From: a virus
Direction: 5' to 3' (one strand)
Length of the DNA: 40,848 bases
IMG/VR virus record: IMGVR_UViG_3300043424_000052
Coordinates: 1 to 40,848 of that record
Below are positions 17,102 to 29,769 of this stretch, piece by piece. Every line of letters starts with the position of its first letter. Position 1 is the stretch's first letter. The notes beneath the pieces are model-generated. The model searched no databases. It had not been told where the DNA came from and was given only the letters and a program-made list of their open reading frames with translations. The translations under genes and the position numbers were made by a program.

Positions 17102-19795
17102 TTATTTCTGTGAAAGGATTTGTCTATTAGTTATGGAACCAGAGACTTGAATAGAGTGGACCTTAGGGGAACCAATAGTTCTTGTCAATGTCATTGTTCC
17201 TGTATATCCGCGAACCCCACCGAGCCTACAGCGGATGCTGGCCGTTTCAGATTCACCTGCGCCATCGGCAATTAGCGTAGTACCACCAAGGAACGTGGTG
17301 GTGCTTCCAATTTCCACAGACGAGTCTGGGTCTTCGGCCGCAAATGCAATGTTATATTCGGCCTGCTCGTTGACGAGTGCTTGCATCTGGACTTGGGCAT
17401 CAGTGAATCGTTTGCGCTCAAGAGTTCCAAAATCGTATCCTCTGCTTACAAGGTAGGAATTTACCACAGCAGACTGGCTATTGCTTGAATTATCTATTCC
17501 AAGATAGTCTGTATTAGACTCACTTGACTCCATTTTGTGCAGCCCACCATTGGCGGCAATTGCATATAGGTCATTACGCACCCCTGCGGTGGCAACTACA
17601 AAGTCTTCAATTAAAAACCTAGAATCGCTGTAAGTATCTACTGATTCCCAGCCTTTATTGAGGAAATTGTACACCAAAACCGCATTATTTCCACGCGCAT
17701 CATTACCATTTGGCACGGAATCTAGCGGTACTGCAATGTAGTATCGGTTATCGTGAAGGATTGCTACTGATTTATCCGCCAAGTTTTTATTGATTCTGTC
17801 GATATACGGCTGGATATTCTTGGAAAGTGGTTCTTCCGTGCCGCGAAGGTTGTAATCGTTCATAAATGTAAGCCCGTAGACTCCATTGTCTGAAAGAAAA
17901 AGCATGTTATTTGCCTGCATCACCACGGTTTTGCGAGCCAAGCAGCCAACCTCGCTAGTCATTTCTTTGACTACCGTGTCAGTAAGACTTCCTTGAGTGT
18001 TAGCCACAATGTGGAGGCTATTTCTGTTAAGAACTACCAGCGCATCATCGTAGAATCCGTGCATGGCCACCACATAATCAGCCGTACCACCAGAGATTCG
18101 GAACTGGTTGGCGATCTGGTCGAAGGTGGTGGTGTCCAGAATGTCGGATGCCACAATTTCGTCGGTGATCTTACGACTAGTATATGTGTAAGAACCAAAT
18201 GTGCCACCCGGCTCATAGTAATACGGAACCCAGATTCGTCGTTGGAAGTAAGTACCCCAAGGTGCGCCGGGCTGATGCATGAATCCACCACCTACTGAGA
18301 ATCTGCCACCGAACTCAAACACATCAGATGCCGAGGTGTTATAGTCACCGATGGGGGCATACCATTGGATTAGCGTACTAGTAGCATTGACTACCTGATA
18401 GGACTGTCCAAGCATGGCTTGAAAGTCAGTGGTGGCAGTTGAGTAAATAATGATTGTATCTCCAACAAAAATAGTAGTGTTGCCAGTAACTGCAGCAGAA
18501 ACCAATCCGCTTACCACATCGACATCCTTGGCTTGGATGTTAAAGACTTGAGGCTGGGTGTACGGGCCACCGGGTGACAGGGTGAACCCGTCTGTCATAG
18601 TGGCAGTGGTTACGCCAAATGTTACGGTCTGGCTCGTAGGCCCGACATAGGTGAAGCTATCCTTGTCGATGATAGAGGCTACGGTAAATGTTCCATTAGG
18701 TGGTGTGCCACCAGTCAACCCGGCAATCACCACAGATGTACCAGCGGTCAACCCGTGGTCACGGACATTCATGGTCACAGTCGTGGTTCCTCCTTGCGAT
18801 GCAGAAATTACAGCTCGTCCATGTGGATACCACTCCAACGCCTGCTGCCCATCACGGAAAAGCATGACCTTGTCAAAGCATTGGATCATGTCGCACTTCT
18901 CACTAACCGTAGCCCCCACAGGGTATGGCAATGTGGTTGCCGTCATCGGTGTGGCAGAAATGTCAATCTTCTTAGCTAGAGTCTCCAGAGCCACAATGAT
19001 GTACTCTTTGTTGGAGTCATTGGGGTCAGAGAACACGCAGGATGCCAGAACCTCGCTAGCAGCGGCATCGTTTACATTGATCTGGGTAATCTTTGGTGAG
19101 CTTGTTCCAGTAATCCCAGTAACACCAGTCACAGGAAAGGTCAGCTCGTCAACGGTGGTGGCAGTAACAGCCTTGATGCCATTGTTGTCTGTTCCAGTAA
19201 AGGTGATCCCAGAAATCGTGAGGTTGCCCGGTTGTCCGATAGTCAACCCATGCCCAACTACCGTAATGGTCACCACATTTGCCGCATAGGAAACAGCGGT
19301 GATAGTTCTAAAGTTTTGAGTAAGATTGGCTGCGGTTGTGCTGGCAGTCGTAGTGTAAGAGCCATCAGCACCAGTTAAGGTGTAATCAAAAGTGTTTGTG
19401 GCTACATTAGAAATGGTAAATGTGCCATTAGGATTTGTGCCACTAGTATAACCAACCCCAGATATGTACACTGAGTCACCATTGGTAAATCCATGAGATG
19501 CCGCAGTTACCGTGATGGTCGTTCCGACACGGGTAACGCTTGTGACTGTCTTCTGGATGACCAGCACATGGAACGGAAGCTGAAGAGAGTTGCCTCCAGT
19601 AGTCAACGCAGGGCTAACCAACTGGACATTCTTCCGAGGCTTCCAGAACCCCTCCATGCGCCCATTCACGCTCTCACGAACCTCTCCTGGCTGAAGCTGG
19701 TTAAGCTGCAATCTCTGGTTGACTGCAAAGAACCCACGATCACCGTCAGAGGCAATCGAATCGTCTAGCCCACCAGTAGACCTAAATTGGGACAT
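17102..19795 (-). CDS. Large tail protein, probable nozzle/stabilisation protein with inserted beta-modules
   Basis: 897 residues. The N-terminus (VNQRLQLNQLQPGEVRESVN) and the later block MLFLSDNGVYGLTFMNDYNL with a following NRYYIAVPL segment resemble proteins that close the podovirus tail tube (T7 gp12 or P22 gp10 type, propeller-like). At least three beta-modules with the pattern HG(F/L)...G..V.I.G...NGTF.(I/V) are inserted in the first half, near residues 85-140, 175-230 and 345-390. It would form the tail tip and hold DNA in. It overlaps the upstream gene as TAATG. Confidence 0.7.
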   Translation of the reverse strand: MSQFRSTGGLDDSIASDGDRGFFAVNQRLQLNQLQPGEVRESVNGRMEGFWKPRKNVQLVSPALTTGGNSLQLPFHVLVIQKTVTSVTRVGTTITVTAASHGFTNGDSVYISGVGYTSGTNPNGTFTISNVATNTFDYTLTGADGSYTTTASTTAANLTQNFRTITAVSYAANVVTITVVGHGLTIGQPGNLTISGITFTGTDNNGIKAVTATTVDELTFPVTGVTGITGTSSPKITQINVNDAAASEVLASCVFSDPNDSNKEYIIVALETLAKKIDISATPMTATTLPYPVGATVSEKCDMIQCFDKVMLFRDGQQALEWYPHGRAVISASQGGTTTVTMNVRDHGLTAGTSVVIAGLTGGTPPNGTFTVASIIDKDSFTYVGPTSQTVTFGVTTATMTDGFTLSPGGPYTQPQVFNIQAKDVDVVSGLVSAAVTGNTTIFVGDTIIIYSTATTDFQAMLGQSYQVVNATSTLIQWYAPIGDYNTSASDVFEFGGRFSVGGGFMHQPGAPWGTYFQRRIWVPYYYEPGGTFGSYTYTSRKITDEIVASDILDTTTFDQIANQFRISGGTADYVVAMHGFYDDALVVLNRNSLHIVANTQGSLTDTVVKEMTSEVGCLARKTVVMQANNMLFLSDNGVYGLTFMNDYNLRGTEEPLSKNIQPYIDRINKNLADKSVAILHDNRYYIAVPLDSVPNGNDARGNNAVLVYNFLNKGWESVDTYSDSRFLIEDFVVATAGVRNDLYAIAANGGLHKMESSESNTDYLGIDNSSNSQSAVVNSYLVSRGYDFGTLERKRFTDAQVQMQALVNEQAEYNIAFAAEDPDSSVEIGSTTTFLGGTTLIADGAGESETASIRCRLGGVRGYTGTMTLTRTIGSPKVHSIQVSGSITNRQILSQK

Positions 19796-28311: not shown

Positions 28312-28504
28312 TGATCTACCAGAGGAGCTTTCACCACGCCTCAAGTGGCAGGAGAAGAAGGGAATCAAGACAATGCGCCGAGCCGATGGTAAGTATGTGG
28401 CGTACAAGACCGAAACCCGCTTCAACAACTCTGATGATACCGAGGTGGATGCCGTGATAGGACTTGCGAAGAAACTTAAGCTACGCATTTGGAATGAAAG
28501 CTAA
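28295..28504 (+). CDS. Small early protein (69 aa)
   Basis: 69 residues, with a basic centre (KWQEKKGIKTMRRADGKYVA). It overlaps the genes on either side (17 bases upstream, 11 bases downstream). No recognised domain; reality is supported mainly by dense packing and codon pattern. Confidence 0.5.
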   Translation: MELLFSDLPEELSPRLKWQEKKGIKTMRRADGKYVAYKTETRFNNSDDTEVDAVIGLAKKLKLRIWNES

Positions 28505-29048
28505 AAACATAAACATACCGCACGAAGAGTTCGTCGATTATTTTTATTACGATAGCGACTCTGGTGATTTCTTTACAAGCGTTGCTAGAAAAAACCCCGG
28601 TGGATTCTCCAGTAAATCATGCGATATCCCCAAGAAAAAGATAGGATCAGATCATACTGATGGTTATATTGTAATATCACACAAGAGGCGGAATTATTTA
28701 GCTCATCGTTTAGCTTATTACTACATGACAGGCAATCATCCAGAGTTTGACATAGATCACATAAATGGTGTTAAAAATGATAACAGATGGTGCAACTTGA
28801 GATTGGCAACTAGATCCGAAAATAGATGCAACTGTGAACCATCATCGGTCAATACATCTGGGACTATTGGTGTTACATTTCACAAACTGGTTAAGAAGTA
28901 TGTAGCCCAAATAAAAAAACATGGGAAAAATCATCACCTTGGATGCTTTGAAAAGATAGAGGATGCAATTAAATGCAGGAAAGATGCAGAGAAAGTTTTT
29001 CACGGGGAGTTCTTGAGCAGAGATAAACAAAAAATAATAAATGAATGA
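28494..29048 (+). CDS. HNH homing-type endonuclease with AP2-like C-terminus
   Basis: 184 residues from the ATG at 28494. The N-terminal part has a beta-rich NUMOD-like region. The core is the HNH motif LAHRLAYYYMTG then DIDHINGVKNDNRWCNLRLA. The C-terminus (GTIGVTFHKLVKKYVAQIKK then HHLGCFEKIEDAIKCRK) resembles an AP2-type DNA-binding domain. This layout matches the gene at 35319. Strikingly AT-rich. The stop overlaps the starts of the methyltransferase and its alternative frame, so it lies in the same message. Confidence 0.85.
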   Translation: MKAKNINIPHEEFVDYFYYDSDSGDFFTSVARKNPGGFSSKSCDIPKKKIGSDHTDGYIVISHKRRNYLAHRLAYYYMTGNHPEFDIDHINGVKNDNRWCNLRLATRSENRCNCEPSSVNTSGTIGVTFHKLVKKYVAQIKKHGKNHHLGCFEKIEDAIKCRKDAEKVFHGEFLSRDKQKIINE

Positions 29049-29769
29049 GCTACACTTATTTGCAGGAGCAGGGGGAGGAATCCTCGGCGGGATGCTTCTC
29101 GGACATACCCCAGTATGTGCTGTCGAGATTGAACCTTACTGCCGAAAGGTCTTACTCCAACGGCAACGGGATGGAATCCTGCCAAAGTTCCCAATCTGGG
29201 ATGATGTCTGCACCTTCGATGGAATACCCTGGCGAGGGGAAGTTGATATCGTCTGCGGGGGGTTTCCTTGCCAGGACATCAGTGCCGCCGGCAAAGGTGC
29301 TGGGATCGAAGGAGAACGAAGCGGACTCTGGAAAGAAATGGCAAGGATTGTTGGTGAGATACGACCAAGATATGTTTTCATCGAAAATAGTCCTTTGCTC
29401 AGAACAAGAGGACTCAGCGTTGTTCTCAAAGACCTTGCCGAAATGGGGTATGATGCAAGATGGGGAGTGCTTGGAGCTGGAGATGTTGGAGCTAGCCACG
29501 AAAGATCGAGACTCTGGGTTTTGGCCAACTCCACAAAGGGTAGATTACAAGGGGGCGAGTCAAGGAAGTTCATATCAACAGAGGAAAAAGCAGTACGAGA
29601 TATGGACTGGAGGCAATTCAGAGTACAAAACAATATACCCAAACCCTATGGCGTACGAAGTCTTAATGGGGTGGCTAATGGGGTGGACAGACTTAAAGCC
29701 ATTGGGAATGGACAAGTTCCAGCAGTGGCAGCAACAGCATTCAGAATCTTAACAGAAGGATTAACATGA
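29041..29769 (+). CDS. C5 cytosine-specific DNA methyltransferase
   Basis: 242 residues. Motif I FAGAGGG (7-13, SAM binding), motif IV GGFPCQDIS with catalytic Cys at 77, motif VI ENS (115-117, usually ENV), motif VIII RSR (155-157), and the late motif KAIGNGQVPA near 216-225. The target-recognition part between is short, so specificity cannot be read. No restriction enzyme lies nearby, so it probably protects phage DNA against host restriction. Almost the whole gene is also open in the +1 frame with protein-like content (see 29045-29752). Confidence 0.85.
   Translation: MNELHLFAGAGGGILGGMLLGHTPVCAVEIEPYCRKVLLQRQRDGILPKFPIWDDVCTFDGIPWRGEVDIVCGGFPCQDISAAGKGAGIEGERSGLWKEMARIVGEIRPRYVFIENSPLLRTRGLSVVLKDLAEMGYDARWGVLGAGDVGASHERSRLWVLANSTKGRLQGGESRKFISTEEKAVRDMDWRQFRVQNNIPKPYGVRSLNGVANGVDRLKAIGNGQVPAVAATAFRILTEGLT
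29045..29752 (+). CDS. Overprinted second protein inside the methyltransferase gene
   Basis: 235 residues in the +1 frame, starting 4 bases after the methyltransferase ATG and ending 17 bases before its stop. Blocks such as GGFLARTSVPPAK, DSGKKWQGLLVRY, LFSKTLPKWGMMQDGECLEL, FWPTPQRVDYKGA and LMGWLMGWTDLKPL match, from memory, a conserved phage protein usually encoded beside or across C5 methyltransferase genes. The match runs through the whole frame, which is unexpected for a shadow. Function unknown; expression depends on the start at 29045, which has no separate ribosome site. Confidence 0.5.
   Translation: MSYTYLQEQGEESSAGCFSDIPQYVLSRLNLTAERSYSNGNGMESCQSSQSGMMSAPSMEYPGEGKLISSAGGFLARTSVPPAKVLGSKENEADSGKKWQGLLVRYDQDMFSSKIVLCSEQEDSALFSKTLPKWGMMQDGECLELEMLELATKDRDSGFWPTPQRVDYKGASQGSSYQQRKKQYEIWTGGNSEYKTIYPNPMAYEVLMGWLMGWTDLKPLGMDKFQQWQQQHSES

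Follow-up and report, generated by a model that had tools for sequence, protein, structure and literature searches.

The locus and its two reading frames

The window analysed here is a 40.8-kb IMG/VR virus record (IMGVR_UViG_3300043424_000052; 40,848 nt), in which two frames on the same strand overlap almost completely. The first, MT, encodes 242 aa and the second, F2, 235 aa, and both lie at the coordinates that an earlier note on this DNA had given (Table 1). F2 is offset by +1 relative to MT, with the two start codons 4 nt apart in ATGAATGA. The neighbours are early-region phage genes, comprising a RecE-like exonuclease, RecT, an endonuclease, an HNH ORF, a RuvC-like resolvase and a DnaC-like loader. 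The HNH endonuclease ORF (28464-29048) is directly upstream and its TGA stop (29046-29048) shares bases with the F2 start codon in an ATGA-type overlap, through which translation of F2 could be coupled to that of the HNH ORF. Elsewhere in the window, a large ORF on the minus strand (17102-19795, about 896 aa) had no PHROG match.

Table 1. Features of the overlapping frames, in window coordinates
Feature	Position	Strand	Evidence
MT (alpha) frame: C5 cytosine methyltransferase with motifs I-VIII and X, without IX	29041..29769	+	PF00145 3.2e-32 (residues 3-178); phrog_363 2.2e-65; motif scan
F2 (beta) frame: second polypeptide, 235 aa, +1 of MT	29045..29752	+	phrog_1008 9.7e-12; +1 in 230/230 profile-matched loci; stop avoidance
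Double start ATGAATGA: MT ATG 29041, F2 ATG 29045	29041..29048	+	Asn2 codon AAT bias
MT motif IV, GGFPCQ, catalytic Cys	29260..29277	+	Sequence; alignment A3
F2 middle segment over MT motifs V-VIII, amino-acid constraint in F2	29323..29525	+	Stop counts; MT fourfold codons 108, 133, 136 constrained
F2 presumed target-recognition region with PTP-type motif; MT an unconstrained linker	29520..29641	+	Fastest codon position is the F2 wobble; PTP-type motifs in F2 frame only
Motif IX NPMAYEVLMGWLMGWTDL, F2 frame	29642..29695	+	Motif scan; MT fourfold sites 89-93 % identical versus 29 % expected
Motif X DRLKAIGNGQVPAVAATAF, MT frame	29686..29742	+	Motif scan

The two translations were searched separately against protein profiles, which identified MT as a C5 methyltransferase (PF00145, E 3e-32; phrog_363, 2e-65) and F2 as phrog_1008 (1e-11), with additional matches of F2 to two short unknown phrogs, phrog_35493 and phrog_26627. 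No family in Pfam or NCBIfam was matched by F2. The PF00145 catalytic domain, with motifs I-VIII including the PC motif, is present in MT. The earlier note had credited this frame with all main C5 methyltransferase motifs, which is incorrect for motif IX: MT carries I-VIII and X, and the sole good motif IX of the locus sits in F2, where it overlaps the beginning of MT motif X (motif calls relied on our own scoring matrix, partly seeded with canonical motifs). Neither the motif scan nor the substitution rates revealed a motif IX and recognition region in the same chain as MT catalysis, motif IX being in the +1 frame only and the MT segment between VIII and IX being unconstrained. A profile built from the motif IX of F2 and the beta proteins of split relatives alone placed its top window on the true motif IX in 69 of 72 canonical methyltransferases, all from one related family. 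When the tails of F2 or beta were compared by profile with the streptococcal family, no match was significant, and a sequence-based search of solved structures with F2 and beta profiles matched none. F2 is acidic (pI 4.8) and MT basic (8.9).

The start of F2 appears in the codon choice of MT. Among 198 xNE-type starts, which are related to each other, MT codon 2 is AAT in 197 (AAT:AAC 197:1), compared with 1038:1480 (41 % AAT) for the other Asn codons of the same genes; AAT at this codon creates the F2 ATG. For representatives below 75 % identity the ratio was 25:3.

Selection on the second frame

F2 lies in the +1 frame of the methyltransferase in all 230 fetched loci with an F2 profile match. 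Because these loci had been picked by F2, the stop test was repeated on loci picked by MT motifs I-VIII alone. In this MT-anchored set the +1 frame was free of internal stops in 33 of 38 non-redundant genes. Shuffling of synonymous codons within each gene, which preserves protein and codon usage and not neighbour effects, gave an expectation of 175.5 stops, and 8 were observed. Canonical streptococcal-phage methyltransferases, used as control, had 249 stops against 313 expected and none of the 18 was open. Across 30 divergent representatives, stops in the +1 frame numbered 39 against 58.3 expected over motifs I-III, 1 against 81.6 from MT codon 67 to motif VIII (region R2, motifs IV-VIII), 0 against 31.2 from VIII to IX and 0 against 21.4 in motif IX, the related sequences used throughout these tests not being independent.

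Substitution rates at MT codon positions 1, 2 and 3, from 136 pairs at 80-97 % identity, were 0.071, 0.021 and 0.150 in motifs I-III; 0.076, 0.034 and 0.185 in motifs IV-VIII; 0.392, 0.224 and 0.239 from VIII to IX; 0.131, 0.053 and 0.053 in motif IX; and 0.135, 0.102 and 0.256 past the end of F2. From motif VIII through motif IX, substitutions are thus fastest at the wobble base of F2. Since MT position 1 is the F2 wobble position, the preserved protein is MT up to motif VIII, F2 beyond it and MT again at motif X. The canonical controls had position 3 fastest throughout, with no wobble flip.

Fourfold-degenerate sites of MT were examined in the same regions. Over motif IX, at the F2 C-terminus, the same third base was found in 89-93 % of comparisons against 29 % expected. 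Motifs I-III had no third-base excess at high divergence, and over motifs I-VIII as a whole third-base identity equalled that of the control at matched divergence. Within V-VIII, MT fourfold codons 108, 133 and 136 are constrained, codon 133 being GCC in 22 of 22 sequences and encoding Pro in F2; the fixation of such single MT codons within V-VII is explained only by F2. From VIII to IX and in motif IX, F2 is also more conserved than MT, with identities of 0.51 versus 0.42 and 0.86 versus 0.75, respectively.

Constraint on MT covers motifs I-VIII and X, and constraint on F2 begins near residue 95 and runs through motif IX. From about residue 95, F2 is a second protein under protein-level selection. 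Its first 90 or so residues have no amino-acid constraint beyond openness, and are kept open in relatives sharing this start. The earlier note had raised constraint on both frames and had named a lack of excess in the second among its grounds for rejection; calculation per frame across homologues found an excess in the wobble, fourfold, stop and identity comparisons, so the proposal survives in a regional form, residues 1-90 being just open. An origin of the F2 frame as a by-product of MT conservation and codon bias would agree with the unconstrained residues 1-90 and with the control-like third-base identity over I-VIII, but the stop counts, wobble flip and motif IX fourfold constraint cannot stem from MT and are absent in the canonical controls. 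It is refuted for residues of about 95-228 and stands for the N-terminal part only, and as an account of F2 it is scarcely credible. A chance or shadow ORF was ruled out by the shuffles, codon-position rates and canonical controls.

Relatives and gene layouts

A tblastn search with F2 returned 30 phage records from diverse hosts, scans with F2 itself yielded 64 loci, and scans with the F2 alignment yielded at least 591 loci in viral contigs plus 325 in genome contigs, archaeal MAGs included. The overprinted layout recurs in hundreds of phage and bacterial sequences, mostly unannotated. In a census of layouts, which counts homology-gathered loci and is not a prevalence, 322 loci were overprinted like the window (IX in +1, X in the MT frame), 29 were split (IX and X both in +1) and about three were fused in one frame. 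Thirteen phage records, picked for interest and not at random, were opened for the MT frame; by motif scan or reading of the translation, motif IX was in +1 in 12, and only streptococcal Javan64 was canonical.

In the split layout the +1 ORF carries the recognition region and, in 29 of 29 loci, motifs IX and X, and the catalytic ORF stops 2-26 codons past motif VIII in 26 of 29, leaving no room there for a recognition domain. Split loci such as L110, L248 and L298 are close relatives of the window, and in them F2 remains open beneath the catalytic ORF from the same region onward. Annotated split pairs are found in TiroTheta9 (gp78/gp77), Vash (32/33) and Kingsley (70/71), where the two genes overlap by just 23-38 nt, and in Samy (49/50), where the phrog_1008 gene is annotated 62 nt past the catalytic ORF stop. 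Homologues of F2 outside the methyltransferase sequence, whose absence the earlier note had named as grounds for rejection, are thus present in these four phages. The split beta proteins match phrog_1008 (3e-33 to 2e-79) as well as the C-terminal part of the single-chain profiles phrog_116 and phrog_363.

The fused loci are L371 and L377, with IX and X both in the catalytic frame, and L335, which is fused with no clear motif X. These could be natural fusions or assembly frameshifts or errors. All three keep F2 N-terminal remnants in +1 (L377, 1808-3043; L371, 1398-2459).

The region between motifs VIII and IX

Between motifs VIII and IX, zero to four PTP-type motifs were found, in the F2 frame only, and their number rises with the length of the region (r = 0.73). 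AlphaFold2 gave no confident fold for F2 alone (pLDDT 55). For fused relative L377, only the catalytic part and the surroundings of IX and X were predicted with confidence, and the middle region was unmodelled; Foldseek matches of L377 in the PDB mainly cover the catalytic part, and a viral structure search added further methyltransferases. The VIII-IX region of F2 is probably the target-recognition region.

Probable subunits of one enzyme

The two frames likely encode the two subunits of a single heterodimeric C5 cytosine methyltransferase, a reading in which we place good confidence. MT would be the catalytic subunit, with motifs I-VIII and X providing cofactor binding and catalysis. F2, separately started 4 nt downstream, would be the second subunit, contributing motif IX and, through its variable PTP-type region, probably recognition of the target. 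Sequence-specific methylation of phage or host DNA would require the two to associate. Expression, association, activity and specificity of MT and F2 are what we infer for this pair, and the enzyme may then act as an orphan methyltransferase, shielding DNA from host restriction for instance. Published experiments have shown in vivo reassembly of C5 methyltransferases divided close to this point, which works best with a C-terminal piece starting between motif VIII and the recognition domain (PMC3404938).

F2 had been described in the earlier note as a conserved phage protein associated with C5 methyltransferase genes. It is conserved and selected, but appears to be more than associated: as the carrier of motif IX, and with split and fused relatives, it is very probably the missing motif-IX and recognition half of the same enzyme as MT. 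A protein with a role of its own, such as a regulator, DNA mimic or counter-defence protein, lying over a self-sufficient methyltransferase would fit the acidity of F2, the absence of a predicted fold like a known domain for F2 alone and the lack of a PADLOC match, which points neither way. However, MT is without a motif IX and a constrained recognition region, which is exactly the content of F2, and in the split and fused relatives the F2 counterpart forms the C-terminal half of the enzyme, so that an independent role is very unlikely. PADLOC gave no match for F2, which was rejected on that ground as a known protein of defence or counter-defence; it was also rejected as an HNH or ShiLan-like insertion (no HNH match in Pfam, PHROGs or NCBIfam).

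Alternatively, a single polypeptide could be made by programmed frameshifting, with translation following MT to motif VIII, moving to +1 through the recognition region and IX and returning into motif X. This would restore the canonical motif order, one-frame fused relatives exist (L371, L377 and L335), and the ORFs of split relatives overlap by few bases. Against this, the openness and constraint of F2 extend over MT motifs V-VIII, ahead of every site at which a shift would be useful, the F2 start codon is conserved, overprinted loci would need two opposite shifts, and the annotated Samy genes do not overlap; frameshifting is accordingly rated as improbable. The F2 frame opens long before the point at which a frameshift fusion would start, and in relatives it is the separate or in-frame C-terminal half of the enzyme.

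More tentatively, and with rather more doubt than belief, phage C5 methyltransferases may include a very large and for the most part unannotated class whose usual form is the overprinted two-subunit enzyme. In this class F2 would carry a distinct recognition region made of PTP-type units in varying number, so that specificity and catalysis would be encoded by, and evolve on, the same bases.

Comparison with known systems

M.EcoHK31I is a heterodimeric C5 methyltransferase recognizing YGGCCR (Lee, Kam & Shaw 1995, as described in PMC3404938), with motifs I-VIII, X and the predicted recognition domain on one chain and only IX on the other (PMC3404938). By that description it resembles the window in having motif IX on a second, smaller polypeptide and I-VIII and X on the large one, and differs in that its recognition domain is predicted in the large subunit, whereas the constrained VIII-IX region of the window, with its putative recognition role, is in the second frame. 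M.EcoHK31I belongs to a bacterial restriction-modification system and the window gene to a phage, the two being compared by description only; on that footing the differences are F2 owning the VIII-IX region, the near-complete overlap, the starts 4 nt apart, the phage context and the breadth. The small M.EcoHK31I gene is reportedly nested inside the large gene in another frame; if so, the window locus would be a variant of the M.EcoHK31I kind.

M.AquI is an alpha/beta split C5 methyltransferase with IX-X on the small chain, as outlined in PMC3404938. It shares with the window a division into two polypeptides between VIII and IX, and differs in having motif X on its small subunit, where the window has it on the catalytic subunit. 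The M.AquI-like layout so described, with IX and X on the small subunit, is not that of the window but of the 29 split relatives (L110, TiroTheta9, Samy and others).

The internal ORF is annotated in Paenibacillus phages. In Paenibacillus larvae phage Sitara, gp59 and gp60 ('g59 internal gene') are both deposited as DNA methyltransferase, with the internal ORF in +1 carrying IX and the outer ORF carrying X, although the F2 counterpart begins further downstream than in the window. The Sitara arrangement is recorded as annotation only, no describing paper having been found in the literature searched. The ShiLan domain is a hidden HNH endonuclease, encoded as an out-of-frame second protein inside a phage DNA methylase gene (PMC11855218). 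It shares with F2 this out-of-frame position, but is a homing-endonuclease insertion in a subset of genes (PMC11855218), whereas F2 has no HNH, is no insertion and spans almost the whole gene.

Motif IX on a second polypeptide (M.EcoHK31I) and a split enzyme (M.AquI) were therefore already known. New are the placement of the putative recognition region, the breadth across phages, prophages and archaeal MAGs, the conserved double start and the layout intermediates; no paper on a phage methyltransferase overprint was found in the literature searched.

If the two-subunit reading is true, many phage cytosine methyltransferases annotated as complete would be half enzymes, with the other half unannotated in the +1 frame. 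A recoded version of the annotated ORF would fail in cloning or assay, as would specificity inferred from that ORF alone. The locus would also be a nearly full-length and long-lived natural overprint, whose products are halves of one enzyme instead of an established protein joined by a newcomer. How such an overlap forms can be tested with the split, overprinted and fused relatives, and E. coli and Salmonella examples exist in both prophages and phages, making the reading directly testable.

Atypical relatives

In three loci (L044, L053 and L281) the methyltransferase frame shifts mid-gene and motifs lie in other frames, possibly reflecting errors or broken genes. In Klebsiella phage BUCT711 (L313, 1594-2109) the annotated methyltransferase CDS begins well inside the open frame, so that the deposited protein is without the N-terminal motifs. 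A second F2-like subfamily (LTWK...WPTP...NPxHSRWLMGxPPEWDDCA) was seen in +1 of methyltransferases at L464 (1366-2379), L324 (1333-2133) and L466 (927-1979), the sources of this subfamily being an E. coli O103 prophage, an E. coli phage and a Salmonella phage-plasmid.
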